Positions 507 to 31,500 of a stretch of DNA of 32,508 nucleotides are shown here, in pieces. The position numbers and the translations under genes were made by a program. Location of the stretch: assembly GCA_947476215.1 (NCBI GenBank), contig CANJQI010000045.1, forward strand, positions 1 to 32,508, in the 5' to 3' direction. The stretch comes from Betaproteobacteria bacterium. GTDB taxonomy: Bacteria; Pseudomonadota; Gammaproteobacteria; Burkholderiales; SG8-41. Numbering within the stretch: position 1 is the first letter of the stretch; every line of letters starts with the position of its first letter. The notes under the pieces were generated by a model. That model saw nothing but the letters and a program-made list of their open reading frames with translations. It had not been told where the DNA came from and made no database searches.

Positions 507-1400
507 TTAGAGCGGGTGGCAGAAATGATTCTGCGCCTTTTTTTGATCGCGAATTATAGCAGGCGTAGGCCGAAGAGCGTGGATGAGCGCCGGAATGTTT
601 TTATGCCCCCGGAGTCTGCGAAACGCCTTTTCTGCTTCCAGGAAACCCGCCGCTGCCCAACGCATGGCCATGACGACATCGCGGTAGTTTGTAACTCGGC
701 GACTCACACGTCGGACCACAGAGTTCGGCGATTCGATCACATTGGTGGTGGCCAGGCAGCGCGCCAGCTCTCCGGTCACACCAAGTCGGTTGATTGTGAA
801 CAACTCCTCCAATCCTTCAAGCAGGCTGGCAGCGGCATCCGGATGCTGCGTCTTCAGATGTTTGGCGTGCGCTTTGAGTTTCTGGATGCCGACATCGGCG
901 TCCCCTTTGAGCGATTGGGTGATTACCCAGCGAGTTTGCGCCGCTTTGGACTTGAGCAGGCGCTCGGCAACATTGCGTATCATGTGAATCCGGCAGCGCT
1001 GCCCGCGGGCGGCATCCCCGCACATCTGATCAATGGCAGAGCGCAGGGCTTTCGATCCATCGATCACCCACGGTCGGGCGACGTTCATATCCACGCCGCG
1101 CTCGGCCAAGCTCGTGAGAAGGTCTTAGACCACCCGGGCGTTCTCGCTGGAACCAGAAACCAACCCCAGCACGTTCTTGGCTCCCGTGGCATCAACACCG
1201 ACAGCAGCGATCAGGTGATGCCGGGCAATGATGATGCCGTCCACATAGATCGCCACCAGATCAGTATTGGTGAAATCACGAGCCATCATTTTGGCCAGCG
1301 CCTGCACGCTATCTTTGATGAAATGACGCGCTACCGCGCTTCTGGAAATACCCATCTCGTCCGCACACGGCTGCGTCACCCGCGTGTGGGCGCAAGATGC
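507..1400 (-). pseudogene. IS256-family (mutator-type) transposase, 5'-truncated with in-frame stop
   Basis: Two minus-strand pieces in the same frame (from about 1400 down to 1125, then 1109 down to 507) form one transposase interrupted by TAA at 1125-1127. The catalytic DDE residues of the family are recognisable: Asp in IYVDGII, Asp in WVIDGSKAL and Glu in ATTNVIESPNS. The motif C-x2-H is also present (RCRIHMIRN). About 298 residues remain, whereas IS256 transposases are usually about 400, so the N-terminal quarter is missing where the IS1380-like fragment begins. The retained part starts near SCAHTRVTQPC and includes a helix-turn-helix-like MGISRSAVARHF. A single nonsense codon plus truncation makes it non-functional. 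The larger opposite-strand frame here is a shadow. Confidence 0.85.
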
Positions 1401-1876: not shown

Positions 1877-2046
1877 CGGTCTAATGGAAAATCTCGGCTA
1901 ATGGATAATCTCGATTAAAAGTGAGTGAGGCGCTTTTTATCAAGACCGGCCCTGTGAATTTCTGCTAAATTCATGTCTGCTGAAACGGGGTGTATGGATC
2001 GTGGCGCTCCGTTTCGATCACAATTCAATTTGCTCCGAGGTGCAGC

Positions 2047-2841
2047 GTGAAACGCGTGGTATTCAATCAGAAAGGCGGCGTGGGCAAGAGCACCATCACC
2101 TGCAACCTCGCTGCGGTAGCGGCCGCGAAAGGATGGCGCACGCTGGTGATCGATCTTGATCCGCAGGGCAATTCCACGCGCTACCTGCTGGGCGACGGCA
2201 CTGATGGCCTGCAAAATACCGGCAGCGCTTTTTTCGAGCAGATGCTAAGTTTCAAACTGTGGCCCAAGCCCGTGGAAGACTTCATCACGGCTACGCGCTT
2301 CAAAAATCTTTCCGTGCTGCCCGCTGATGGCGGGCTTGAAGAGCTACAGGGCAAGCTCGAGGCGCGCTACAAGATATACAAACTGAGAGAGACACTCGAC
2401 GCGCTTGAAGGTTACGATGAGATATGGATCGATACGCCGCCCGCGCTGCATTTTTACACACGCTCCGCGCTGATCGCCGCTGACACCTGCCTGATCCCGT
2501 TTGATTGCGACGATTTCGCGCGCCGCGCGCTTTATGCGCTGCTCGAAAACGTCGCAGAAATACGTGCAGACCACAACGCTGCGTTGCGTGTCGAAGGCAT
2601 CATCGTCAATCAGTTCCAGCCGCGCGCCAACCTGCCGCAACGGATCGTACAGGAACTACGCAACGAAGGTCTGCCGGTGTTGAACACACTGCTGTCGGCC
2701 TCGGTCAGAATCAAGGAATCGCACCAGCAGGCTACACCGATGATCCATCTTGATCGTCGGCACAAGCTGTCGCAGGAGTACACCGCGCTGCACCAGGAAC
2801 TGGTTGCGGCGATGAAAGACGCTCGGCAGAAAGGTAGCTGA
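2047..2841 (+). CDS. ParA/MinD-superfamily ATPase (orphan ParA)
   Basis: A 264-residue P-loop ATPase of the ParA family, which uses ATP-dependent DNA binding and dimerisation to position DNA or protein cargo. The deviant Walker A KGGVGKST is at residues 9-16 with the signature Lys at 9 and P-loop Lys at 14. The switch-like DLDPQGNST is at about 36-44 and the Walker B-like IDTPPA at about 128-133. GTG at 2047 is chosen because it puts the P-loop at the usual distance from the N-terminus and has CCGAGG six bases upstream; the frame is open further upstream to 1990 but that extension looks non-coding. No parB and no obvious parS cluster is adjacent, so a role in chromosome or plasmid segregation is not shown. 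It sits directly downstream of IS debris, consistent with an accessory origin. Confidence 0.85.
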   Translation: MKRVVFNQKGGVGKSTITCNLAAVAAAKGWRTLVIDLDPQGNSTRYLLGDGTDGLQNTGSAFFEQMLSFKLWPKPVEDFITATRFKNLSVLPADGGLEELQGKLEARYKIYKLRETLDALEGYDEIWIDTPPALHFYTRSALIAADTCLIPFDCDDFARRALYALLENVAEIRADHNAALRVEGIIVNQFQPRANLPQRIVQELRNEGLPVLNTLLSASVRIKESHQQATPMIHLDRRHKLSQEYTALHQELVAAMKDARQKGS

Positions 2842-2908: not shown

Positions 2909-3065
2909 CGTGTCTATTCAGACTCTATGAGAAGGCCTGAAAATTCATGTCGCCAAATGAATTTGGCATTCATGTTCATAGGGAAACATATTTTCGTTCG
3001 AAATTTTGAGTAAAACCCCGTTCCCTCTGTGAAATCGACATTTTCATAGAGTCTGAATAGACACG
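2909..3065. mobile_element. MITE-like element, 157 bp with 25-bp terminal inverted repeats
   Basis: The left arm at 2909-2933 (starting CGTGTCTATTCAGACTC) is matched in inverted orientation at 3041-3065; 22 bp nearest the outer ends (2909-2930 and 3044-3065) are perfect and one mismatch lies further in. The interior is AT-rich and non-coding, and contains a second smaller palindrome near 2954-2969 (GCCAAAT-GA-ATTTGGC). Size, symmetric ends and lack of coding content suggest a miniature inverted-repeat transposable element. No clear target-site duplication is visible at the flanks. As RNA it would also form a long hairpin and could act as a transcription end for both parA (+) and the small gene on the minus strand. 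The parent transposon is not recognisable. Confidence 0.6.
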
Positions 3066-3259
3066 ATTTCCCTACCGACTGACCTCAATTTATACTTACC
3101 TTTCATCACCGCATAAATAACCAAAGCCACTACCAATGCGCAGACCCCCATTTCGCCGTACGTAATTTGTCCGTCAAACGGGACTACCGACAAGTAGTCC
3201 TCTATCGGCATAGGGGTAGGATTTTCTGCTACGTATCTCTCGCGTGCCTTGTTATCCAT
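3044..3259 (-). CDS. Small single-pass membrane protein, hypothetical
   Basis: A 71-residue protein starting at ATG 3259 with a strong ribosome binding site (GGAGGAG a few bases upstream). The N-terminal half is polar and acidic (MDNKARERYVAENP, PIEDYLSVVPFDG). Residues about 38-53 form one hydrophobic helix (GVCALVVALVIYAVMK), followed by a basic tail (GKYKLRSVGRE), which suggests the C-terminus is cytoplasmic. The last residues SIQTL and the TGA stop are encoded inside the right arm of the inverted-repeat element at 3041-3065, so the natural C-terminus may have been replaced by the insertion. It starts 30 bp after the end of the decayed UGSC-family frame on the same strand. I do not recognise the family. 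Confidence 0.6.
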   Translation of the reverse strand: MDNKARERYVAENPTPMPIEDYLSVVPFDGQITYGEMGVCALVVALVIYAVMKGKYKLRSVGREIVSIQTL

Positions 3260-3289
3260 TTCTCCTCCACTCGAATTGTTCTTCGAGTT

Positions 3290-3742
3290 TCATTGCACTC
3301 GCACAGAAGCATCAAAATAGAAAATAATGAATGCGTTAAACGTGTCGGTGGTAATCATCACGGCCGGTATGCCGCGGCTTTCGAGCGCTGCGCTAACGTG
3401 GCCACACCACGTCGTGCAAGACCCTCAATCGCCGGTGGCAATAACCGCGACGTCTATGCGACACGTGATTTCGTCCAGAATTTGACGCATGGCCTCTATC
3501 ACCTTGCCCTTCGAAATGGGCACATCGCGCATCGGCTTTATCATGACCACGGCATCAAGCTCGAAGCGTTTGCCCGACGCCGCGCCCACGCCCTGCAAAA
3601 TTTCGACGGCGGAGGGGCGCCAGTTAGTCAGCAGGCCCGGTCTCTTGCCGGCCAGACTGGCAGGCCGCGCCGCGAGACCTGTTCCGCCGATGCGCTCGTC
3701 GAGTTAGGTCGGCAACGGGGACAGCATGGTGAGATCGGGCAT
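3290..3742 (-). pseudogene. UGSC-family (seleno)protein gene, decayed; in-frame UGA at the Sec position
   Basis: Start ATG at 3742 has GAGGAGG eight bases upstream. The frame reads 12 codons, TAA at 3704-3706, then 92 codons from LDERIGGTG through LAGKRPGLLTNWRPSAVEIL, KPMRDVPISKGKVIEAMRQ and RIDVAVIATGD, then TGA at 3425-3427, then GSCTTWCGHVSAALESRGIP and VMITTDTF before a stop at 3290-3292. The order ATGD-(UGA)-GSC-T-x-W followed by a helix, RGIP and a short hydrophobic strand matches the family named for its U/C-G-S-C motif, in which U is selenocysteine. So the TGA is probably the original Sec codon and not decay. The TAA at codon 13 and loss of homology after TDTF (the tail NAFIIFYFDASVRVQ looks random) make the gene non-functional. 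Family assignment is from memory of the motif; biochemical function is unknown to me. Confidence 0.65.
3396..3427 (-). promoter_or_regulatory. Candidate bacterial SECIS hairpin after UGA
   Basis: Immediately downstream of the UGA (3425-3427, minus strand) the RNA can form a 6-bp perfect stem ACGUGG / CCACGU (3407-3412 with 3396-3401), extendable by one G-U pair, closing a five-base loop UGUGG. The loop begins 18 bases after the UGA and has G as its second base. This spacing and an early apical G fit the loose consensus for bacterial SECIS elements recognised by SelB. A 6-bp stem can occur by chance in GC-rich sequence, so this supports the Sec reading without proving it. Confidence 0.4.
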
Positions 3743-3840
3743 CGGAATATCCTCCTCGAAAATCGCCATGATACGGTCGGCACGGCAGTTCGCGGCAAGC
3801 AAACAGAATACCCGGGAGTTTCGCTAAAAACTATGAGCGC

Positions 3841-3860
3841 TTCCGCCGAAGTCGGCGGAA
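3841..3860. repeat. Short perfect palindrome
   Basis: TTCCGCCGA-AG-TCGGCGGAA is a 9-bp perfect inverted repeat with a two-base centre, about 100 bp upstream of the UGSC-family start on the minus strand. It could be an operator or the stem of a hairpin between the regulator relic and the UGSC gene; no T-tract follows. Confidence 0.45.
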
Positions 3861-3867
3861 ATGTTGC

Positions 3868-4056
3868 CTATGCGCGGCAAACGCGCGTGCGGCTTAGCGG
3901 TTGATCAGAGGCGTCCAGCAGCAGGTTCGTCGGACCAGACGGGACAGCGCCCAATGCGAGATCAGCGTGGGAAACACCCTCAGAGTCAGCAATTTGAGCG
4001 ACTTTAGTTGCAACCAGTTCAAGAACGACCTGCGCATATCCCCCCCCGATTTTCAT
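3868..4056 (-). pseudogene. Possible LysR-type regulator N-terminal (HTH) remnant, frameshifted
   Basis: On the minus strand two overlapping frames each carry half of what resembles a LysR-family winged-helix N-terminus. From ATG 4056 one frame gives MRRSFLNWLQLKSLKLLT, like the conserved L-x-x-L-K-x-L-x-L-L opening. The next frame then gives IADSEGVSHADLALGAVP and NLLLDASD, reminiscent of the helix-turn-helix S-x-A-A-x-x-L-x-x-x-Q-P-A-x-x-x-x-L-x-x-L-E. The effector domain is absent. An eight-C run at 4040-4047 lies near the start and is a likely slippage site. The call is tentative: the HTH match is imperfect and I cannot align it. If right, this was the upstream regulator of the decayed UGSC locus. 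Confidence 0.3.
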
Positions 4057-4383
4057 GCCATGTCCATCTCCATTAACGGAACGATGTATAGAAAACTTGA
4101 AGGTGTCGCTCAATTCCCGCGAAGAATCGCCGTATAGTGCTTCGTTCTTTGGCCAATCCCGCGGAAATCATGACTGTCGCTGCGCGTAGCCTCCAGCGCA
4201 CGTCGCTGACTTCAACTGGTCCGCAACATGTCAGCGTGTCAGAAATGCTCCAAGCGTAGCGTTACTCCGCTAGACCGGCAAACGGCAGCGGTGGCACGGC
4301 GGTTGTGCAACAATAACGTCTCGTCTAATAACGCCCGCAGGCAGCACAGGGAGCTACGGGAAAACGCTGAAAGGGGGACGCTC
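4057..4383. other. Leader/intergenic region before first Bug gene
   Basis: Nothing clearly coding is seen. The Bug-gene frame is open back to 4228 but that extension lacks a signal peptide and is rich in Arg and Asn, so it is treated as untranslated. A Shine-Dalgarno sequence AAAGGGGGA lies at its end, about 4369-4377. No confident promoter could be chosen. Confidence 0.4.
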
Positions 4384-5343
4384 ATGCCGAATGTTCTGAG
4401 CAGAATGATGCTGTTTGGGTTGCTGACTGCCGCCACGGGGGTGGCGTGCGGGCAGAGCTACCCGGCTAAGCCGATACGCATCGTGACCTCGAATGCCGGC
4501 AGCGGCAACGATCTGGTGGCGCGCATACTGGCGCAGGGGGTGACCGGACCGCTTGGGCAGCCGGTGATCGTGGACAACCGGGCAAGCGCGGTTGTCGCGG
4601 GCGAAGTGGTATCGCGCGCACCGGCCGATGGATATACGCTGCTGTTCTATGGCAACAGCCTGTGGCTGCTGCCGCTGATGCGCAGCAGCGTTCCCTACGA
4701 CACGCTGCGCGACTTCGCGCCGATTACCATGGCAAGCTCCGCACCTAGCGTGCTGACCGTGCATCCGTCGCTGCCAGTCGAGTCGGTGCGCGAATTGATA
4801 GCGCTGGCCAAGGCCAGACCCGGCCAACTGAACGACGGCTCACCGGCGGTCGGTACCTCGACCCACCTGGCAGCGGAATTGTTCAAGTTCATGGCCGGCG
4901 TCAACATCGTGCGTGTTCCGTACAAGGGCGGTGCAGGCGCGCTCAACGATCTGCTTGCCGGTCACATACAACTCGCATTTGTGATCACCACGGTGGCGGT
5001 GCCTCACGTGAAATCGCAACGACTGCGGGCGCTGGGCATTACCAGTCCCGCGCCTTCCCCGCAGTTTCCGGACTTGCCTACGATCGCGGCAACGGGCCTG
5101 CCCGGTTACGAATCGTTGGCGCTGGCGGGCCTGCTTGCTCCGAGCAGGACGCCCGACGCCGTGATCCGGCGCTTGAATCAGGAATTTCTGAAGGTGATGG
5201 CGCTTGCTGACGTGAAAGAGCGTTTCCAGGCGTTAGGCGTCGAAACAGCTGGCAGCACGCCCGAGCAATTTACGGCCACGATCAATTCCGAAATCACAAG
5301 ATGGGGCGAAGTTATCCGCAAAGCTGGTATTCGCGACGAATGA
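4384..5343 (+). CDS. Bug/TctC-family tripartite tricarboxylate-type solute-binding protein (1)
   Basis: A 319-residue periplasmic binding protein of the Bug family, which captures small organic acids. ATG 4384 follows AAAGGGGGA at good spacing and gives a Sec signal peptide (hydrophobic MMLFGLLTAATGVA, cleavage about ACG/QSYP). Family hallmarks follow: YPAKPIRIV, DNRA, APADGYTLLF, DFAPIT, VHPSLPVESVRELIALAKARP, HLAAELFKFMAG, VPYKGG, DLLAGHIQLAF, LPDLPTIA, LPGYE and a C-terminal TPEQF. Length is typical. Odd points are GQLNDGSPAVGTSTHL, where most family members read LNY-x-S-x-G. No TctA/TctB membrane genes adjoin. It converges on Bug 2, the two stops being separated by 22 bp. The ligand cannot be predicted. 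Confidence 0.9.
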   Translation: MPNVLSRMMLFGLLTAATGVACGQSYPAKPIRIVTSNAGSGNDLVARILAQGVTGPLGQPVIVDNRASAVVAGEVVSRAPADGYTLLFYGNSLWLLPLMRSSVPYDTLRDFAPITMASSAPSVLTVHPSLPVESVRELIALAKARPGQLNDGSPAVGTSTHLAAELFKFMAGVNIVRVPYKGGAGALNDLLAGHIQLAFVITTVAVPHVKSQRLRALGITSPAPSPQFPDLPTIAATGLPGYESLALAGLLAPSRTPDAVIRRLNQEFLKVMALADVKERFQALGVETAGSTPEQFTATINSEITRWGEVIRKAGIRDE

Positions 5344-5365
5344 TTCTGCAGACTCAGTCCAGCCG

Positions 5366-6340
5366 CTACTCAATCTTGATGCGCGCTTCCTTGACGATTT
5401 TGCCCCACTTTGCGATTTCAACTTTGATCAGCGCCGTAAAATCCTCGGGCGTACTCCCCACCGCCTGCGAACCATCCGCCGCCAGTTTCTGACCGATGTC
5501 CGGCAGATGCATGATGCGCGCTATTTCACGGTGCAATCGCGCCAGAATAGGTTGCGGCGTGCGCGCCGGCAATGCCAGCCCAAACCATCCAGCAACTTCG
5601 AATCCGGGCGCACCCGCCTCGGACACCGTCGGCAGTTCCGGCGTCGTCGGCGAACGGGTCTTGCTGCTGATCGCAATTGCGCGCAGCCGGCCGGTCCTCA
5701 CGAAAGCCTGCGACTGCAGCAGCGTGGAGAAAAGCACTTGTATGTTGCCCGCGAGCAAATCCTGCAGGGCCGGGTTGCTACCCTTGTACGGCACGTGCGT
5801 CATGCGCGTGCCTGAGATGGATTCCAACATAACGCATGCGAGATGACTGGTGCCGCCCAAGCCTGAAGATCCATAGTTGAGCATGCCGGGCTGGGCTTTT
5901 GCCAACGCGATCAGTTCCTTGACACTTTTGACCGGCAGAGACGGATGCACGACCAGCAAATAAGGTTGCGTCGAAAGCTGCGTCAGCGGCATGAAATCGC
6001 GCAGCAGGTTGTAGGTCAGATTCGGATAAATATGCGGATTGATCGAAGTGCCGGTCGAAATAAAGGTCAGCGTATAGCCGTCGGGCGCTGCCTTCATGCC
6101 CATGGTCAATCCTATGGTGCCGTTGGCACCCGCCTGATTGTCAACCAGCACCGGCTGCCCCCACGCCTCCTGCAACTTCGCCGCAACCGCACGCCCGATA
6201 ATGTCAGTGCCGCCGCCGGGCGGAAACGGAATAATGATTCTTATGGGTTTCACCGGGAAGTTATCGGCGGGCTGCGCCCATGCAGTGGAGTAAGCAATGC
6301 AACACGCTAATGCCTTGAATATGATTATCTTTTTAGACAT
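5366..6340 (-). CDS. Bug/TctC-family solute-binding protein (2)
   Basis: A 324-residue Bug protein. ATG 6340 gives MSKKIIIFKALACCIAYS, a signal peptide cleaved about AWA/QPAD. Motifs: FPVKPIRIIIPFPPGGGTDIIG (the classical Bug N-terminal signature, more canonical here than in the other four copies), DNQAGANGTIG, APDGYTL, VHPSLPVKSVKELIALAKAQP, LNYGSSGLGGTSHLA, HVPYKGSNPALQDLLAG, LPTVSEAGAPGFE, PARTP. Its start overlaps the stop of Bug 3 as TGATG, and its ribosome binding site GGAGGAGGG lies inside the last codons of Bug 3, so it is the second gene of a translationally coupled pair. The AGANGTIG motif and ordinary Bug pocket suggest a broader or different ligand from the upstream partner, which is inference only. 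Confidence 0.92.
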   Translation of the reverse strand: MSKKIIIFKALACCIAYSTAWAQPADNFPVKPIRIIIPFPPGGGTDIIGRAVAAKLQEAWGQPVLVDNQAGANGTIGLTMGMKAAPDGYTLTFISTGTSINPHIYPNLTYNLLRDFMPLTQLSTQPYLLVVHPSLPVKSVKELIALAKAQPGMLNYGSSGLGGTSHLACVMLESISGTRMTHVPYKGSNPALQDLLAGNIQVLFSTLLQSQAFVRTGRLRAIAISSKTRSPTTPELPTVSEAGAPGFEVAGWFGLALPARTPQPILARLHREIARIMHLPDIGQKLAADGSQAVGSTPEDFTALIKVEIAKWGKIVKEARIKIE

Positions 6341-7323
6341 CAAGGCCCTCCTCCTGATCTTGCCTGCTTGATGCCGATATTCCTCACCACTTTGTCGAGT
6401 CTGGCTATTTCCGCTTTGATGGAATTCGCCAGCTGCTCGGGCGAACTCCCGACCGGCTCCAGACCGCTTTTCAGCAATCGTTCCCTGACATCGGTCCTTT
6501 CGAGCGCTTTCACGATTTCCTGATGTAGCCTACTGACCACAGGGCCTGGCGTTTTCGCCGGCGCAAAAAAACCGATGAGCTGCTCGGATTCGTAGCCAGG
6601 CAAAGATGCCGCGACGGCCGGCAAGCCTGGAAACATGATGGAGGGTTGCGGACTGCTCACCGCCAGTGCGCGCAGTTTGCCGGCCTGAATATGCGCCGAC
6701 ATGGATGTACCGCTGCCAAAAGTCATCTGCACTTGCCCGGACAGAAGTTCTGCGATCTCCTGCGCGCCGCCCTTATAAGCAATGCGCACAACGTTGATTC
6801 CAGCCATGGCTTTAAATAGTTCTCCACCGATATGTGACGAACCACCCGTGGAACCTGACGAGTAATTGAGATCGCCCGGTCTGGCCTTCGCCAAGGAAAT
6901 AAGCTCCGCCACCGTCTTGACCGGCAATGAAGGATGGACGACCAGCACATTGGGCGCCTTGGTCAGCATGGAAATCGGCGCAAAGTCTCTGACCGGATCG
7001 TACGGCGCATCCTGAAGCAGCGGTGAAATCCACATGCTGCCGCTGTACAAGAGCAGCGTGTAACCATCGGGCGCGGATCGGGCGACCGCATCCCCCAACG
7101 TGACACCGGCGGCACGATTTTCCACCACGACCTGCTGCCCCAAGGGACTGGACATCGCCTGTGCGAGCAGGCGCGCCGTCAGATCGTTGCCACCACCTAC
7201 GCCTGCGGTCAAGATTCGGATTGGCTTCACGGGATAGGTTTGCGCAATGGCGGAGGCCGCGCCGATTGCCCACAAGACCATGAATAGCAATGTCTCAACC
7301 AAACCACAACGGAGCAAATGCAT
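6340..7323 (-). CDS. Bug/TctC-family solute-binding protein (3)
   Basis: A 327-residue Bug protein starting at ATG 7323. The signal peptide spans about residues 1-27 (LLFMVLWAIGAASAIA/QTYP). Motifs: YPVKPIRIL, GNDLTARLLAQ, ENRAAGVTLGDAV, SAPDGYTLLL, VHPSLPVKTVAELISLAKARP, LNYSSGSTGGSSHIGGELFK, IAYKGG, LLSGQVQMTF, LPAVAASLPGYE, APAKTP. The replacement of PGGG-x-D by TAGVGGGND and of the AGA loop by AAGVTLGDA is shared with Bugs 1, 4 and 5 (ND/SD/TD-LxxR plus a short A-G-V loop), so these four look like one subgroup and Bug 2 is the outlier. Its C-terminal SGGGP is created by the downstream gene's ribosome binding site. No strong ribosome binding site precedes its own ATG. Confidence 0.92.
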   Translation of the reverse strand: MHLLRCGLVETLLFMVLWAIGAASAIAQTYPVKPIRILTAGVGGGNDLTARLLAQAMSSPLGQQVVVENRAAGVTLGDAVARSAPDGYTLLLYSGSMWISPLLQDAPYDPVRDFAPISMLTKAPNVLVVHPSLPVKTVAELISLAKARPGDLNYSSGSTGGSSHIGGELFKAMAGINVVRIAYKGGAQEIAELLSGQVQMTFGSGTSMSAHIQAGKLRALAVSSPQPSIMFPGLPAVAASLPGYESEQLIGFFAPAKTPGPVVSRLHQEIVKALERTDVRERLLKSGLEPVGSSPEQLANSIKAEIARLDKVVRNIGIKQARSGGGP

Positions 7324-22108: not shown

Positions 22109-22560
22109 CTAACCCAATTTCAGGATTCCGTCCTGCAACCCGGACAGCGGGCGCAGCGCCTGCGCCGCCATACCAAACTGCGGACTCGCGAGCACGTCTT
22201 GCGCGGCGTTAGCCCCTATGCCGGACAAGCTTGCGTTCAATCCATATCGATACGCAAGATCGCCTCCCAGGGCCTCACCGTCGCTGCCGGCAAGATGCGC
22301 ATCCAGCAGCGCATTCATCATCGCCCAGCGAACGGCATTTCCTTGCGACGCAGCACGCGTCTGATCGAACTTTTGCACAATTTTCCGGAAATCGAAGTGC
22401 TCCACTTTGTTATCACGTAGCGGGTCGGCTCCACCCGGCGCGAAATCACTCATGGCTTCAGCGATAACCTGCAGATCGAATACGCTGCGATTGCCCGTGC
22501 CGGAGTACCAGTCCTTGAACGTGATGCTTTCGTTCGCGCCCGTCTCCAGAACCAGGCTAT
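22109..22560 (-). other. RTX protein C-terminal region with putative type I secretion signal
   Basis: The last 150 residues begin with a final HCBP-related unit (LVLETGANESITFKDWYSGT). They continue as a repeat-free, Cys-free, mostly helical segment (FDLQVIAEAMSDF, KIVQKFDQTR, RWAMMNALLDAHLAG), ending RPLSGLQDGILKLG. RTX proteins carry an uncleaved C-terminal export signal for type I secretion; this is the position where it must lie, although no consensus exists. Confidence 0.5.
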
Positions 22561-25500
22561 TGCCCTGCTTGCTCAGCAGCATGTCGCTGTAACGTATACC
22601 GCCGCCCAGGGAAACTGTGTTGTCCTGGCCAGGACTCGCCACGACGGTATCCTGATCGTCACCGCGATTAAACGCAATGACGTCAGAACCCACGCCCGTA
22701 TCTATCGTATCGTTGCCCTTTCCACCCATGAACAGTTCATTGCCGGAACCGCCGGCGAGCGAGTCATTCCCGTTCATGGCATAGAGCAGATTATTGCCGT
22801 AACGGTCGGTGAGCAAGTCGTTGCCATCATCGCCTTCAATGAGGTCATTGCCCCGCGAGCCATCAAGCGTATCGTTGCCGCTGCCACCCATGACGACATC
22901 GCGTCCCGCACCGCCATATAAATCGTCGTTTCCGGAACCACCTAGCAGCGCGTCATCCCCCGCCGACGTCCACAGCACATCATTGCCATCGCCACCGTCC
23001 AACGTGATATTGCCGTAGGCATAGGTGCCGCTGGTCAGATCAACAACGTCGTTACCGCCACCGGCATCGATACGCTCAATACCCGATATTCTTGGCACAC
23101 GCACGCCGCCATAAGTCGCCGTGTAACTATCATCGAGAAACAAGACGTCATTACCCGCCGTGGCCACGATGACATCCATGCCCGCACCACCTTCGAAGAC
23201 ATCGTATGAACGGTTCTTGCCGGATATCGACGTGGACTTGCCGGTGCCCGGATTACCCGGACTGCCATCATTGCGCGCGACAAATCCCGCCCAGACTCTG
23301 TCCGGAAAATACTGAAATGTGTCGTTACCACTGTTTCCCACGAGCCAGTCGGCGTTACCGCGACCATCGAGCGTATCGTCCCCCTCTCCACCAATCAGCT
23401 TGTCGCCCCCGGAAGTGCCTACCAGTGTTGCTCCGACCGTGCTTCTCGCAACCGACAGATTAAATTCGCCGATAGCGCGCAGATTTCCGGAATCGGTCGC
23501 TATAACCCTGAGTGCAGTTATGCCGGGATCAACTGGGGCACCACTGAACGTCCGTGTCGACGGATTAAAAGCGATCCAGGCGGGCAACGCCGCACCACTC
23601 GCCAGCGTCGCCGTGTACGTCAATACGTCACCCGTGTCTACATCCGTGAATGTACCGGCGGGTACCGTATAGCTGAATGCGGTGAACTGGGTTGCCGTCC
23701 GATCGGCAAGAACATTTGCCAGAACTGGCGCATCGTTAACGCCCATGACGGTTATCGTGACGACACCCGTCGCGCTTGCACCCGCAGCATCGGCTATGGT
23801 GTAGGTTATGGTTTCGACCGCCGTCATCTCCGCGGCTAACGCGTCCAACGCTGCGCCGCTGGCTGAATACGAAAGGAATTGTGCACTTGGATCGAATGCC
23901 ACCGTTCCCAATGCGCCTGAAATAATCACAGCAGTAATCGTGAGCGTATCCCCCAGATCGACATCCGTATCATTTGCCAGGAGCAACGGGACGAGATTAT
24001 ACGACGTCGCATTTTCGGAAAGTATGACACCATCGTTTCTTGCCTCTGGTGCATCGTTAGCATTAAGTATCAACAAACTAAACACGTCCTCCGCGATGGC
24101 ATGGCCAGTATCCGAGACGACGACCCTCAATCCCAGCACGCCGACATCGTCGTTCAAAGGCGTGCCAGTAAACATCCCAGACCGCCCATCAAAGCTCATC
24201 CATGCCGGGAGAGCGGAGCCGTCTTCGCGCATCGCGGTAGAGCTCAAAATCTCACCAATATCTGCATCCGCGAAAGTATCGTTGGGCACACCGAAGCTGA
24301 ATGCCATATCCTCATTCGCGGATTGATCTGCAATCCCATGTGCCAGCGTCGGCGCATCGTTGGTATTTGTCACGAATAGCGCAAATGAAGTGGATGCGAA
24401 CGCACCCGAGGCATCCGTTGCGACCACACTGACTATCGTGCCCCCCACGTCATCATTACCAGGGGTCCCGGTAAATGTCAGAGCGGCGGCGTCAAAATTG
24501 AGCCAGAACGGCAGTGGCGTCCCGTCCGACTGCAGAGCAGCATATTCGAGCGCATCTCCATCCGGGTCGTGGAAGTTGTCGTGAGGAACTGCAAATGCGA
24601 ACGGCGTATCTTCCTGCGCCCCCTGATCCGATATGGCATGCGTAACGAGCGGAGCGTGGTTTACCGGCACAGATTCCACCAGGCTGTCGATGAAGTCAGT
24701 GTTCCATCTTGTCCCGTCGCCGAAGCTAACCAGTTCTATTCGGGAATCGAAAGATTTGAACCAGTTCACCATGGTCAGCGTGTCATCGGTGCCACGAATC
24801 GAAAGCACCATGTCGTCCATGACGCGGTGAACGTCAAGGTCCGCCACAGATACGTCGTCCGACAAGACCACACTGTCGTGGTCGCCCGCCGGCGCGTTAC
24901 TCTCGATCACGATGTCGCGCCCAAAGCCACGCCCAAACCGGTAACGGTCGCTACCCATACCACCCGCGAGACTATCATCGCCGGCGCCACCATTGAGTTC
25001 GTCATTTCCGGAAAGTCCGCTCAAACGGTCACTCGTGTTCGTACCGGTCAAAACATCGTTCTCATTTGACCCCGTAATATCAAACCCGCGCTCAAGCAGC
25101 TCTGCGTAGGTCAATTGACCGCCATCCGCAAACCGGAACAGTTCGATAGATTCCGAACCGTAGACATCTTGTGGATCGAAATGCTCTATGTGAATCGCAT
25201 CTCCATTATTTCCCATCCGTATCATCAGGGACCCGACGTCCAGCGATAACGATCGTGACGTAATTCCAGTTCCAAATTCGATGGTGTCGGCATCTGTGTA
25301 GTCGGGCAGTTCGACAATAAAATCGACCCCGTCTCCGACTTCAAAATGGTAGGCGTCGGATCCCTTACCGCCGTAAAGATGATCTTGCCCCGGCCCGCCG
25401 GCCAACCGGTCGTTCCCTTTGCCTCCAAAAATCACGTCATCGCCGCTTCTTCCGTCAAAACTGTCAGCGACATTCGTACCGTAATACACGTCGTCGCCAG

Positions 25501-28500
25501 CGGTGGCGGGCAATGCCTTGATCATTAACTCAGCCGCATCCCAAATCGTGCCATCGACAAATCGCACCTCCTCGACCACATCGCCTTCCATATCCTTGTA
25601 ATAAACTGAAAACCAGTTATGGAGCGTAATAGTGTCGCCGGTTCCGGCAATCGACAAATAAAGATTGGGCGCATCCGCATTCAGCGCATCCGCCCTCACC
25701 ACAACATTGCCTGGCGTGATCCCTGCGCCAAACACGACCGTGTCGTATCCGTTTGCGATCGACTCTGATTCACGCAGCGATGGAGAAAAATTAAAACGCG
25801 CGCTCCCTTCAAATATCACGTCACTGCCGAAACCAATATCAAACCTATATTGGTCGTCTCCCGGCCCGCCGTGTAGATGATCGCTGCCCCTGCCTCCAGT
25901 CAGGTGGTCGTTACCCGCTCCGCCGTAAATAAAATCTTGACCATCCCCGCCGTGCAGGAAGTCGTCACCTTCATCACCCGCGACTTTGTCGTTACCCAGC
26001 CCGCCGAATAAAGTATCGTTACCGCCACGACCAAACAAGAAATCATCGCCATCCAGACCATCCAGCACATCGTCACTGGATGTCCCGGACAGGAAGTCCA
26101 GATCCGAAGTTCCCTCCTTATTAAAGTGCTCATCAATCTGACTCGGCCCCCACACCGTACCATCGCTAAAATGTATTTCGGTAAATCCTGCCGATGGTGA
26201 CATTCCCCCAAGGCTTGAAAGTCCACTCTTGATGAGTATTTCGTCTCCGGCATCGCCAACGCTTACCTTGATATCTCCGCTCGCGTAGCTTTTGAACACG
26301 AGATTGACGATAGGCTGAAATGACACGTCGTCTGGACTAATGCCCTCCGCAAAGAGGATCCTGCTGTTGCTTTGCAATTCCTTAAATACGTCATGCCCCA
26401 ATCCGGGCGCGAACAAATAGGTATCCATGCCATCGCCACCGTCCAGGGTATCGTCACCGGCTCCTCCCGCCAACGTATCCCGGCCGGAGGCTCCTGTCAG
26501 GATATCGTTACCGCCTAGGCCATCCAACGAGACATCCCGAAACGAACTGCCGGCCGCGCTCAGTATGTCGTTGTCAGCAGTGCCTGCGACTCGATGGTCG
26601 GCATAAGGACTTAAATCCCAGACAGTACCATCCGAGAATTCAGCACGCAGCAATCGATCAACGCTGTTGTTCGCGTTCAAAGCAATTCGGTCATCCCCGC
26701 CGGACAACAAGAGAACAATGAAACCTGCTTCCGTGGTGACAGTGACATCCGTAGGTCGCACCCCCGCCCGGAAGCGCACAGTCTCAACGCGCGGAAGGAG
26801 TTCGCTTTGAGAGATAGGCCTTTCCACAACGTCATGGCCGTACCCATGGCCAAACAGATAAGTGTCATTGCCATCCTGGTCCCACAGCAAGTCGTCTCCA
26901 GAACCTCCATCAATCACATCATCGCCGGGACCCGCGTAAATTTGATCGTCACCATCCCCTCCATAAAGGTAATCCGCGCCTTCATCGCCAAATATCAGAT
27001 CCCTACCCGCATCGGCGGCAACGGTATCATTGCCGCTGCCGCCAAAAATGTGATCGTCGCCTATACTTCCCGTAATAAAATCATCCCCCCCGTTTGCGTA
27101 AACGCTCACAGGAACGACGATTCCACCCGTGATCACATCATCGTGAGAGCTGCCAAATCGGGCGACTCCGGCTGCCGTAACCAGATCACCTGCCTGTAAA
27201 CGCAGATAGTCCAGATCCCAACGGGTTCCGTCCTCAAAAACCACATCCAGGTCATTTCCGTCCCTGGTCAATACAAACAAAGTGATGTGATCTTCCGTGT
27301 CCGTCAGAGTAAGATCGATTTCTCGCTGGGCCCCAGGCCGGCTGATAGAAACATCCGCGGGCCGGATATCCGACCCCATCCGTATGGTGGCGCGCCCCGC
27401 GCTGCTTATATAGTCATGCCCATCGCCGCGTCCAAACTCAAACGTATTGACGCCTAACCCTCCCTCCAGAGTGTCCGCGCCACCTCCACCGATAATGGTG
27501 TCGTCACCTTCGCCCCCGTTTATCCCGTCATTACCCGCGCCACCGTCGATGAGGTCGTTACCGTCGCCTCCGTTTAATGCGTCGTCACCGCCGTTGCCTG
27601 ACATGAGATCGTTTCCGCCACGACCCAGCAAGCTTTCGCTGGTCGTACCGCCATGCAAAACGTCATCAAATGACGTGCCTGACCAATGATCGCTTGAATG
27701 AAGCACTTCCTCTGTCGCCCGCGCTTCTATCTGCGTGGCGTCCAACACGGCGCCCGTCGAAAAAGAGAATTGATTTATCGTTGTTCGCTTTAGCGACCAG
27801 TACCATGCGTCGAAGGTAATCGTGTCGCCGCTGCCCTTAATACCAATAGTTAAAGCGAAGGAACCGTCATTACGATGCACGTCAAGGTCATCGGGCGAGA
27901 CATCCGGTCCAAACATGACGCTATCGCTGTCCACGGCACGGCTATCCGACGAAGTTTCGATATCGTTCTCGTCCACGAAGTCCTTGCCTGAACCACGGCA
28001 AAACAGATAGATGTCATGCCCCCGGCCGCCGACCAGCGTGTCGTCTCCGGCTCCGCCGTCAAGCACATCATCGCCTTCGCCCCCCTTCAATGTGTCGTTG
28101 CTTTTCCCGCCTCGTAGCGAGTCAACACCACCGCCTCCTAAGACAACATCGCTCCCGTTTCCTCCGAAAAGCAGATCATCGCCTCCGTTACCCTCCAGAT
28201 CATCATCGCCGTCTCCGCCGGAGAGCACATCATTTCCTGACAGGCCGATGAGCTCGTCGTCACCCTCGGTTCCATGGTGATTTGCAATGGAAAAACGGTA
28301 GGCCAATTCAGTTTCATCCCAGACTTCGCCATTGGCAAAATGGACTGCATTGACGGAAAGCGTGGAATTGGCAAGCTTAGGCAAGTCGGATCGCTCCGAG
28401 AACCAACCTGGAATTTCCAGGAGTTCGTTGCCACCTCGCAATCCCAGCAATAACGTTATTGCAGAATTCGGAAACGGGCGACTGCCACCGAGAATCACGT

Positions 28501-31500
28501 CAGCCGAAAGCACGCCTGGCGCCATTTCAATAATATTCGTAACGTGGGGGACCAACAAACCGGGCTCATCGTCCAGGTCGATCAGGACGTCATGCCCGTA
28601 CCCATATCCGAAAATATAGCGGTCTTTACCGAATCCACCGCTCAAATAGTCGTCACCAGAACCGCCTTCCAGCACATCATTACTTCCCTCCGCACGAAGA
28701 TCGTCATTTCCGGTTCCGCCGCGCAGCACTGCGTAACTTCCCGGGTTTCCAGTAGGATAATGCGCGCCAGTGCCCAACAACGTGTCATCGCCGGCTCCGC
28801 CTTCGAGAACATCGATCCCGACACCAATCCCCGAGATCAATCTGTCATTGCCGTCGTCACCAAAGAGTAGATCAGACCCTTCCGATCCATCGATGATGTC
28901 GTCCTGCGATCCGCCATGGATTTCATCGTCGCCTTCGTTTCCCGTGAGGTTGTCGCGCCCTCCGTGTCCAAATATGACATCGTTGCTCTCTCCACCGTTC
29001 GCAATATCCGGTCCCTGCGTGCCTATGATCGCATCATCAAATTCACTGCCTTCGAAGCTTGTTGGAAACATGCTCCACAAGTCGTACATAGACAGCATAG
29101 TTCCGTTTGAGAATTCAAAGCTTTCGATCTCATCAGACAGTTTCCCGGTCAAGCTGAGGTAATTGCTGCTAAACGCATTAACCCAACTTCCGCTATAGTC
29201 GATGTTCATCCTATAGCCATTGGCATTGCGCACGGTTTTCACAATCAAGCTCGCGGGATCAACGCCGTCCCCAAAAATAACCCGGTCTACCCCTTCGGCA
29301 TCGGTGAGCGTCACGGTTCCGGCCTCAAACGGGATTTGATAGACATCGTCGCCTGTCCCACCGTCTATCGTGGAATGCGAATTGCTTTCCGACGAAATGA
29401 TGATCAAATCGTTCCCGTCACCGCCGAAGACCGTATTGACACTCCCCAATCCCGTATCAATCACGTCGTCGCCGGAACCGCCTTCCAGATAATCGTTACC
29501 CGGTCCGCCGAACAGAGTATCGTTACCCTCACCACCTTCGATAACATCCGATCCATCGCCGCCATCAATCACGTCATTGAACGGCGTTCCGTGCACCCGG
29601 TCGTTTCCCGCACTAGTGCGTTCCAGGGCATGACTTTTCAACGTTTCGGAATTCCAGATCGTGCCGTCGCCAAACTCCACTGCGGTGATTCCGTTGTTGC
29701 TGTAGGTCCAGCCCGACAGGTCCAGACGATCGCCGTAACCGGCCACGTTGAGAGAAATTCCCCCGCCGGATTCGTCTAATATGCGCAGCCCGGTGGGCGC
29801 GATTCCCGGTCCGATTCTGATCACATAGGCGGAATAGTCGTCCGCCACCCGGTCGTGTCCGGAGCCGACGCCGAAACGTATGACATCGGCGCCAGACTCG
29901 CCGCTCAATACATCGTCGCCAGCGCCGCCATCCAGCGTGTCGTTACCCGCGCCACCATACAGCGTGTCACTGCCCGGTCCACCGTCCAGATCGTCGTCGC
30001 CATCCCGCCCGTCGAGGGTATCGCTTCCACCGCGACCGTCGATTGAGTCATCGCCGCTGGCGCCGACGAGAAAATCCGCGCCATCCGTGGCTGCTGAAAC
30101 CGTGTCCAATAAGTAACTGACATCCCACACCGTGCCACCCGCGAAGCGCACTTCCTCGACCTGATAAGCCGGATCGTCAAACCAGTTACGCAATGTCAAC
30201 GTATCGTCGGCACCGGTTATCGACAGCACAAGATCATGGTAATTACGATTCACCGTCAGTTCGGAAGGTGCGATGTCACCCGAGATTTGCACCGCGTCTT
30301 TGTTCCCGGGCGACATGTCAAAATCGATTATCGTATCCGTGCCCGCGCCTCTGCCGAAGACGTAAATATCGTCTCCCGTGCTCCCCTCCAACAAGTCGCT
30401 ACCTAAACCTCCGTCGAGGCGGTCGTTTCCTGCGCCACCATAGAGCTGGTCGCTACCGTCTTCGCCCTCAATGACATCATTCCCGTCGAGGCCATATACG
30501 ACATCGTTACCGCCACGCCCGTTTATGGTGTCACCCGATGATGTGCCGTAAATGGCATCGTTCCCACTCGAGGCAAGGGTCACAGTGACAATGCCATCCA
30601 GCGCTGCGGGACTCCACTCCGTGCCATCACTAAAAATCGTTCGTTCGATCTGGTAACTCGCCCCTCCGAACCAGTTTGCCACCTGCATCCGGTCACCAGA
30701 GCCGTTGATAGTCAGATAAAGGCTGTAGATGTCGCGGGTCAGCGTCACATCCGCTGCTAATGCGCCAACGAATAGCGTATCTAGATTGCCAGGTGTACCG
30801 TCCGCCTCATAAATCGTATCTTCTCCGCTTCCGGATCCGAACAGATAGGTATCGTTACCGCCCCCTCCCCAAAGCTGATCCGATCCGGAGCTGCCATCGA
30901 GCAGGTCGTCTCCACTGTCGCCATCCAGGAAGTCGTCACCCGCGCCGCCGGCGAGATGGTCATTGCCCGCGCCACCCAGCACATGGTCGAACTCGTCGCC
31001 ACCATCCAGCGTGTCGTTACCCGCATCGCCGGAGAGCATATCGCTGCCAGATCCGCCACGCAGCGTATCATTACCGCCACTGCCGAAGACCTGATCATTG
31101 CCTCCCAGTGCATCGAACAAATCATCGCCAGGTCCACCGGCTATGAAATCGGCGCCATCCGAGATAGTGGTGAATACTCCCAGTATCGTGCCCACATCCC
31201 ACGTAATGCCATTCCCGAATCTGATCTGCTCGACCTTATGGGCGTCGTCGAGAAACCAGTTTTGCACGGTCAGCTGTGAACCATAGTCACTTCTGCTCAG
31301 GAGCAGATCATCGCCCGAACGGGAAAGCAAGATGTCCGACGGCAAGGCATCGGTCTCCACCGTATCGATATTTCCGGCCGTTACGTCATCCTCGACGATC
31401 GTGTCGTTGCGTGCATCACTCTGCCACAAATAAGTGTCATCGCCCGAACCTCCAATGAGAACGTCGGCATCGTCCATGTCCGGCCCGTACGAAAATGCAC

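Follow-up and report, generated by a model that had tools for sequence, protein, structure and literature searches.

The 32,508-nt window, the whole stretch of DNA analysed here, contains a gene that, judged from its sequence, is a defunct member of one branch of a UGSC selenoprotein family of very large size. The genome to which it belongs, that of an uncultured betaproteobacterium, encodes a complete selenocysteine (Sec) system, 54 UGA-bearing members of the family and a partner domain that accompanies them. We regard this account, together with the decoding of the UGA codons as Sec, as very probably correct.

A decayed UGSC gene near probable mobile DNA

A first-pass annotation of the window had assigned the open frame at 3290–3742 to the UGSC family across an in-frame TGA, and the homology does continue across that codon. 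With TGA read as Sec, the piece of the translation after the TAA matched the Pfam UGSC profile (PF24696) with 88.6 bits (E = 6.9e-25; cut-off 25 bits), a match that is not due to chance because it runs across the TGA. A profile search of the genome contigs recovered the same gene at C45:3329–3712 with 82.4 bits, and tblastn aligned 3736–3329 to a sister homologue at 55% identity over 136 aa. The NCBIfam profile NF041046 gave 63.9 bits (E = 1.5e-17; also 55.0), which is below its naming cut-off of 125. Translated from 3742 to 3290 on the minus strand, the frame reads M...PT*LDERIGG...VIATGD*GSCTTWCGHVSAALESRGIPAVMITTDTFNAF..., with two internal stops; the second has the context GD-TGA-GSCTTW, so that the motif reads D-UGA-G-S-C (Table 1).

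The gene was also said to be decayed, and the TAA at codon 13 and the lost 3′ end bear this out. Its extent needs correction at one end: the gene and its start stand as annotated, but the homology ends at 3329 rather than at 3290, and the last 12 codons of the frame are unrelated to UGSC. From 3329 on, the last third of the gene is replaced by AT-richer DNA, with G+C content dropping from 61% (3330–3742) to 45% (3060–3329). Given the early TAA and the absent C-terminal part, the window copy belongs to the UGSC family by descent and is not a working member. Across the whole window, tblastn gave no convincing match to a remnant of the partner gene (best E = 0.52), and a promoter scan of 3250–4250 returned nothing useful.

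The inverted-repeat element beyond the break lies in a stretch of 43–45% G+C, compared with 57% for the window overall, and no second copy of it was present among the 149 loci examined. Because this element, a ParA-like gene and a Mutator-family transposase remnant all lie nearby, the 3′ end of the window copy was likely lost through insertion of, or recombination with, mobile DNA. The Bug-type transport genes that the first reading had placed beside the gene are indeed there, as three adjoining Bug/TctC ORFs (4228–7323).

Table 1 Features of the decayed UGSC gene and its surroundings in the window
Feature	Position	Strand	Remarks
Mutator-family transposase remnant	507–1109		PF00872, 50.9 bits, profile 230–372 only; near the ParA-like gene
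ParA-like gene	1990–2841		Near the transposase remnant; follows the MITE-like element as read from the UGSC gene
MITE-like element	2909–3065		Inverted ends of 25 nt (96% complementary); situated between the ParA-like and the decayed UGSC gene
Small ORF, 71 aa	3044–3259	−	Within the AT-richer segment replacing the UGSC 3′ end
Unrelated end of the open frame	3290–3328	−	Homology stops at 3329; 3′ end of the gene and partner gene missing
UGSC-family gene, decayed	3329–3742	−	Profile homology 3712–3329; start codon 3742–3740
SECIS-like hairpin	3395–3413	−	8-bp stem, 3-nt loop GUG, 19 nt after UGA; fits published bacterial constraints, −9.6 kcal/mol
Cys codon TGC of the U-x-x-C pair	3416–3418	−	All 54 copies with UGA have Cys at +3
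UGA codon 106, Sec position of U-G-S-C	3425–3427	−	No lesion; codon shared with sister homologues and 53 other genome copies
In-frame TAA, codon 13	3704–3706	−	Lesion; sister homologue L145 is open across the site
Ribosome-binding site AGGAGG	3751–3756	−	Kept upstream of the start codon; read from the sequence
Bug/TctC receptor	4228–5343	+	PF03401, 211.6 bits; 515 nt from the UGSC homology
Bug/TctC receptor	5366–6343	−	PF03401, 235 bits
Bug/TctC receptor	6340–7323	−	PF03401, 216.2 bits

Selenocysteine machinery and the ancestry of the UGA

The first-pass annotation had suggested that the lineage inserts Sec, and the machinery for doing so was located in the genome. Profile searches identified selA (584 bits), selB (446 bits), tRNA-Sec (74.1 bits; gathering score 47) and selD (424 bits), the last with an in-frame TGA of its own in the motif GGG-U-GCK. 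We strongly infer that SelB, with Sec-tRNA, decodes UGA as selenocysteine in the intact UGSC copies. The chance that UGA instead codes genome-wide for another amino acid such as Trp or Gly, with no Sec involved, is negligible: fused UGSC genes do stay open for hundreds of codons past their UGA, but the reading is ruled out by the use of UGA as an ordinary stop (in 32 of 126 Bug ORFs near UGSC genes, in 6 of 42 control Bug ORFs and as the final stop of 30 of the 54 UGSC frames), and the UGA codons that are read through share a single motif position, in most cases with a hairpin behind them, in a genome with the full Sec machinery.

On a single contig (C221), selA and selB are followed on the same strand by a thioredoxin-reductase-like gene and then by tRNA-Sec. 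The thioredoxin-reductase-like gene (L001/L017) matched TIGR01292 with 245.7 bits, short of the cut-off of 343, and has a CxxC motif; its product is a candidate electron donor for the selenoproteins. Near the start of another contig (C119:130–999, L002), a second match to the SelB profile (183 bits) covers the GTPase part (profile 1–264) and may represent EF-Tu or a second SelB-like protein.

Close homologues of the window copy are present in 6 of the 14 other genomes of the genus (G047, G044, G051, G050, G045 and G055), at 50–56% identity over about 120–125 residues, and each match contains one in-frame TGA and no further stop. The sister gene at L145 is intact; its 215-residue product reads GDUGSCTTW at the site, and a second protein is encoded by a separate gene following it. 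In a tree of 59 UGSC domains, the window copy grouped with the sister copies, of which five were included (SH-aLRT 100), apart from the paralogues of its own genome. As its best paralogues there are just 34–37% identical, this grouping leads us to infer that the sister copies are orthologues. Comparison with these homologues, which have UGA at the same site, indicates that the UGA of the window copy is ancestral, as first proposed, and not a lesion.

The copies within the genome point the same way. PF24696 gave 58 matches, 57 of them above the cut-off, and 56 cover the active site (C7:47087 and C158:2894 are fragments that miss it); 54 of the 56 have UGA there, two have Ala (C76 and C80) and none has Cys. 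The first-pass annotation had said that its reading would fall if all close homologues encoded a residue unrelated to Sec or Cys at the site; the close homologues in the six sister genomes have UGA there, and in this genome such residues are confined to the two Ala copies. If the TGA were simply a further nonsense mutation, replacing a former Cys codon of a dead gene, this would suit a gene that is broken anyway, by its TAA and its lost 3′ end; the explanation is nonetheless ruled out by the UGA that homologues in the six sister genomes carry in otherwise open frames and that the paralogues share. The hairpin in the window, which fits SECIS rules, also speaks against it, and we consider it extremely improbable.

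Hairpins of the SECIS type follow most of the UGA codons. Published bacterial SECIS constraints (PMC13188914), coded here with unbroken stems, were satisfied at 47 of the 54 UGA sites, compared with 39 of 443 control windows taken from these genes; the other seven sites, at −3.7 to −6.8 kcal/mol, were outside the energy limit. In most lesion-free relatives the hairpin is positioned 17–20 nt past the UGA. A first type, resembling GUCGUGGA-GUG-UCCACGAC, is found in 30 genes, and a second, with a G+C-rich stem and the loop CGUGUU or similar, in 16; the remaining 8 have other forms. Compared with 200 synonymous shuffles, the 39 nt after the UGA folded more strongly, with a mean z of −2.00 for the fold energy and 44 of the 54 below −1 (mean z −1.30 for 51 nt); control windows up- and downstream in the same UGSC genes had mean z values of −0.26 to +0.12. 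Stem positions 12 and 30 of the 30 type-1 genes are occupied by G-C (22 genes), A-U (5), G-U (2) and G-A (1), a covariation mostly at synonymous third positions (Thr/Asp) with a nominal Fisher p of 1.8e-4 (n = 29, uncorrected for shared descent). His is encoded by CAC in 29 of 29 cases in the stem, compared with 72 of 182 downstream. All five sister copies form the hairpin GACGUGGU-GUA-GCCACGUC after the UGA, and a version of it is retained in the window copy. The window hairpin on its own is not unusual against dinucleotide shuffles (z −0.58; 47 of 200 fold as well), and its value as evidence lies in its position, loop and family, not in its energy relative to such shuffles.

The UGSC family, its partner domain and its distribution

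In all 54 UGA-bearing copies a Cys follows three residues downstream of the UGA, and 53 have the motif U-G-x-C. Four of the 54 are visibly decayed by reading: the window copy, one on C7 (TAG and a frame break), one on C307 (TAG) and C37:36241, which is missing its N-terminus. This leaves the intact paralogues that the first-pass annotation had suggested searching for, namely 50 UGA-bearing copies with no other lesion; the C104 copy among them reaches the end of its contig. With SelD, the genome therefore has at least 51 selenoprotein genes, a count that covers the UGSC and SelD families alone. Just 5 of 56 NF041046 matches in the genome reach the naming cut-off of 125 bits. The broken copies on C7, C307, C37:36241 and C158:2894, together with partner remnants at L150, L153 and L155, suggest ongoing gain and loss of UGSC genes in this genome. 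In the two copies lacking UGA (C76, L068; C80, L069), the Sec column is occupied by Ala and the Cys column by Thr (CNAGITQPTS). Both are full-length UGSC–partner proteins in which the partner Cys is kept, and they are possibly a non-redox offshoot.

A partner domain of about 360 aa is fused in frame to UGSC in 35 of the 54 genes and encoded by an adjoining gene in 18; the window copy is the only one with none. The 18 adjoining genes are on the same strand as UGSC, before or after it, with 8–300 nt between the matches. No partner domain was found in 300 kb of control sequence. Genome-wide, the domain was located 62 times; 56 of these places are at UGSC genes and six are away from them. Among the six, L153 and L155 are truncated, L154 begins at a contig edge, and L150 is complete and preceded, by eye, by just the tail of a UGSC domain. 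The other two, L151 (C94) and L152 (C182), are apparently complete, and no UGSC was found in the stretch read; these two raise the possibility that the domain also functions by itself or with a different partner. Pfam had no fitting family for the two members scanned, nor did NCBIfam for the one member scanned. Invariant residues of the domain include N, R, E and W as well as one Cys (C262 in A1, C82 in A4), which all 35 fused proteins share.

It is very unlikely that mixing within the metagenome bin accounts for the high copy number. The genome (G000) is a draft of 5.75 Mb in 326 contigs, and strain mixing has been raised in a review as a concern for a MAG rich in selenoproteins (PMC13188914). 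However, the nearest paralogues are 34–73% identical (median 61%) and, being at most 73% identical, are not strain duplicates. This divergence and the low contamination (1.17% at 98.46% completeness) rule out strain mixture; in addition, several copies share a contig, with six on C27, and the family recurs in related genomes. UGSC was found in all 36 genomes of the taxonomic family, this one included, with 2–31 matches in each of the other 35; the same run gave at least 48 for the present genome, where 48 of 71 candidates were scored. All 42 genomes from the set of SelB relatives also had it, with 2–40 matches (six of the 48 loci were left out); the cultured Enhydrobacter aerosaccus ATCC 27094 is among them, with 3.

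Further out, the family thins. Elsewhere in the order, 24 genomes of other families were searched and three had UGSC, with 1, 6 and 19 matches. When 398 genomes were sampled evenly across the phylum, it was found in this genome and four others, with at least 1–2 matches in each of the four, counts that are lower bounds as at most 8 candidates of a genome were scored; in one of the four, the match had no stop. By these counts, few members of the phylum have UGSC, and the family has expanded in this lineage. The 48 loci of the nearest SelB relatives are titled mostly as uncultured Betaproteobacteria or Burkholderiales, several of them from groundwater or lakes. Six MAG records (L087, L088, L097, L099, L109 and L112) are titled Bordetella parapertussis and have SelB proteins 58–60% identical to that of this lineage; we consider these titles doubtful.

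Predicted structure, gene neighbourhood and possible function

A structure model of one fused protein (pLDDT 90.9, pTM 0.91) predicts the UGSC part to be an alpha/beta domain, with Sec94 between a strand (86–92) and a helix (95–110) and Cys97 within that helix. Sequence searches of solved structures gave no convincing relative (best E 0.45 for A1 and 0.076 for A2; none for A4). With the fused model, Foldseek returned a single match under 0.001 (TM 0.17/0.43), and residues 21–179 gave middling VIA-align Z scores of 8.7–10.8 among the best 50 matches listed, all to common alpha/beta folds (flavodiiron, receiver, lumazine synthase and TIR). We rejected a function taken from the top VIA-align match, 8s7v_H of the MCR activation complex, as it is barely above unrelated matches. 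Neither GrdB nor PrdB was among the 50 VIA-align matches listed, and the folds listed for residues 21–179 were ones other than the thioredoxin-like fold.

Bug receptor genes are frequent around UGSC. Of the 58 UGSC matches, 45 have a Bug (TctC) ORF no more than 1.5 kb away, and for 4 there was none in the stretch read. The background was taken from 5000 random placements in 20 control regions, picked by contig number from UGSC-free contigs: 39% of placements had a Bug ORF within 1.5 kb, and Bug density was 2.9 per 10 kb around UGSC versus 1.4 in the controls. Such genes are very many genome-wide (PF03401 had 995 candidate places; 150 of them were scored, and every one matched), and the closeness of UGSC to Bug is therefore just about twofold above background. 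Of 115 other neighbour proteins within 3.5 kb, 86 were scanned, and a raw tally gave 16 MmgE/PrpD, 6 CoA-transferase III, 6 TauD and 6 FAD_binding_2 proteins.

We tentatively propose that UGSC and its partner form a two-part reductive selenoenzyme in which a Sec/Cys pair acts with the partner Cys on one organic acid per pair. Sec would be inserted at the UGA, and the U-x-x-C pair and the invariant Cys of the partner would together form the redox site, with Sec at the start of a helix in the alpha/beta UGSC domain. Electrons may come from the thioredoxin-reductase-like protein of the sel cluster. Each UGSC–partner pair would be specific for its own organic acid, brought in by the nearby Bug receptor and broken down by the products of nearby MmgE/PrpD, CoA-transferase or oxygenase genes. 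By extension, and with similar reserve, the lineage might have made one Sec-dependent two-part enzyme into a toolkit of about fifty selenoenzymes, each with its own acid and its own Bug receptor, in an apparently aerobic bacterium.

An appreciable possibility, though one we would not bet on, is that the UGSC–partner proteins are general thiol or peroxide antioxidants, or serve in redox repair, rather than acting as substrate-specific catabolic reductases. The U-x-x-C motif, the thioredoxin-reductase-like gene between selB and tRNA-Sec, and reviews that place such families among the thiol redox proteins all favour this, as does a heme-copper oxidase gene in the genome, which suggests aerobic life. 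Against it, the copies are divergent, number around fifty, mostly have a Bug receptor close by and in many cases catabolic genes, which would be better explained by diversification of substrates.

Substrate-specific selenoenzymes of comparable design are known. GrdB/PrdB-type selenoproteins include the glycine, sarcosine, betaine, D-proline and fluoroacetate reductases, and the GrdB type has several Sec subunits, one per substrate, encoded beside transporters, as in the fluoroacetate operon (PMC10838667). The resemblance to UGSC would be one of working design, by analogy: several substrate-specific Sec subunits, transporters and a second subunit. At the Sec region, GrdB and PrdB profiles gave weak matches (E 0.009–0.08). 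The window copy scored 15.5 of 300 bits for PrdB and 14 of 602 for GrdB, and two intact UGSC proteins scored 15.0 and 14.0 of the 300 bits for PrdB, which places them outside these families by profile. For the UGSC partner, as a possible GrdE/PrdA-type second subunit, there was no fitting match in Pfam (two domains) or NCBIfam (one).

The UGSC family itself, and a UGSC fusion, were already known. A UGSC-containing selenoprotein was described as one of 51 families in Global Ocean Sampling (GOS) data, where Sec forms far outnumbered Cys forms (255 versus 21), and the same 2008 paper reports a fusion of UGSC with a domain named Unknown_1 (PMC2398784). Unknown_1 is perhaps the partner domain of about 360 aa described here. 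The GOS family, as set out in that paper, and the genes of this genome have in common the motif, a UGA at U and a Cys three residues on; the GOS family is spread across a sampled community, whereas here a single genome has 54 UGA-bearing copies, 53 of them with the second domain. In the literature searched, we found no report of a UGSC expansion in Betaproteobacteria such as the one seen here.

Among selenoprotein-rich genomes, a Methylomirabilota MAG has 63 selenoproteins and the Delta 1 symbiont of Olavius algarvensis at least 57 (PMC13188914), Desulfosediminicola flagellatus at least 46 (PMC12013277) and Syntrophobacter fumaroxidans 39 (PMC9312934). The richest clades are described as mostly anaerobic, and aerobic bacteria as rarely keeping selenoproteins (PMC13188914). 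The roughly fifty apparently unbroken UGA-bearing UGSC genes would place the present genome among the richest in selenoproteins reported, its count of at least 51 being comparable to those of Olavius Delta 1, the Methylomirabilota MAG and D. flagellatus. The selenoproteomes of these three are spread over many families, whereas here one family, UGSC, accounts for 50 of the 51 genes counted, in a betaproteobacterium with a heme-copper oxidase. With the Sec codon kept copy after copy and no Cys form found, the family offers a testable case for selenium chosen over sulphur. Its enzymes are easily mis-called: a gene caller that ends at UGA drops the rest of the protein, including the fused partner in 35 genes. 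The partner domain is also a new target for work on structure and function. If the toolkit proposed above is real, no larger selenoproteome built from a single family would be known, and selenium-dependent catabolism would gain a new class, one concealed by gene callers that end at UGA and by naming cut-offs that most of the copies do not reach.

The surroundings of the gene in the window are of the kind seen around UGSC genes elsewhere in the genome, with Bug, MmgE/PrpD, ornithine-cyclodeaminase-like and Asp/Glu-racemase genes. At the far end of the window, a giant open frame on the minus strand (22109–32506; at least 3465 codons) runs off the edge and is full of GGxGxDxLxGG-type repeats; by eye, its product looks like an RTX-like calcium-binding surface or secreted protein.
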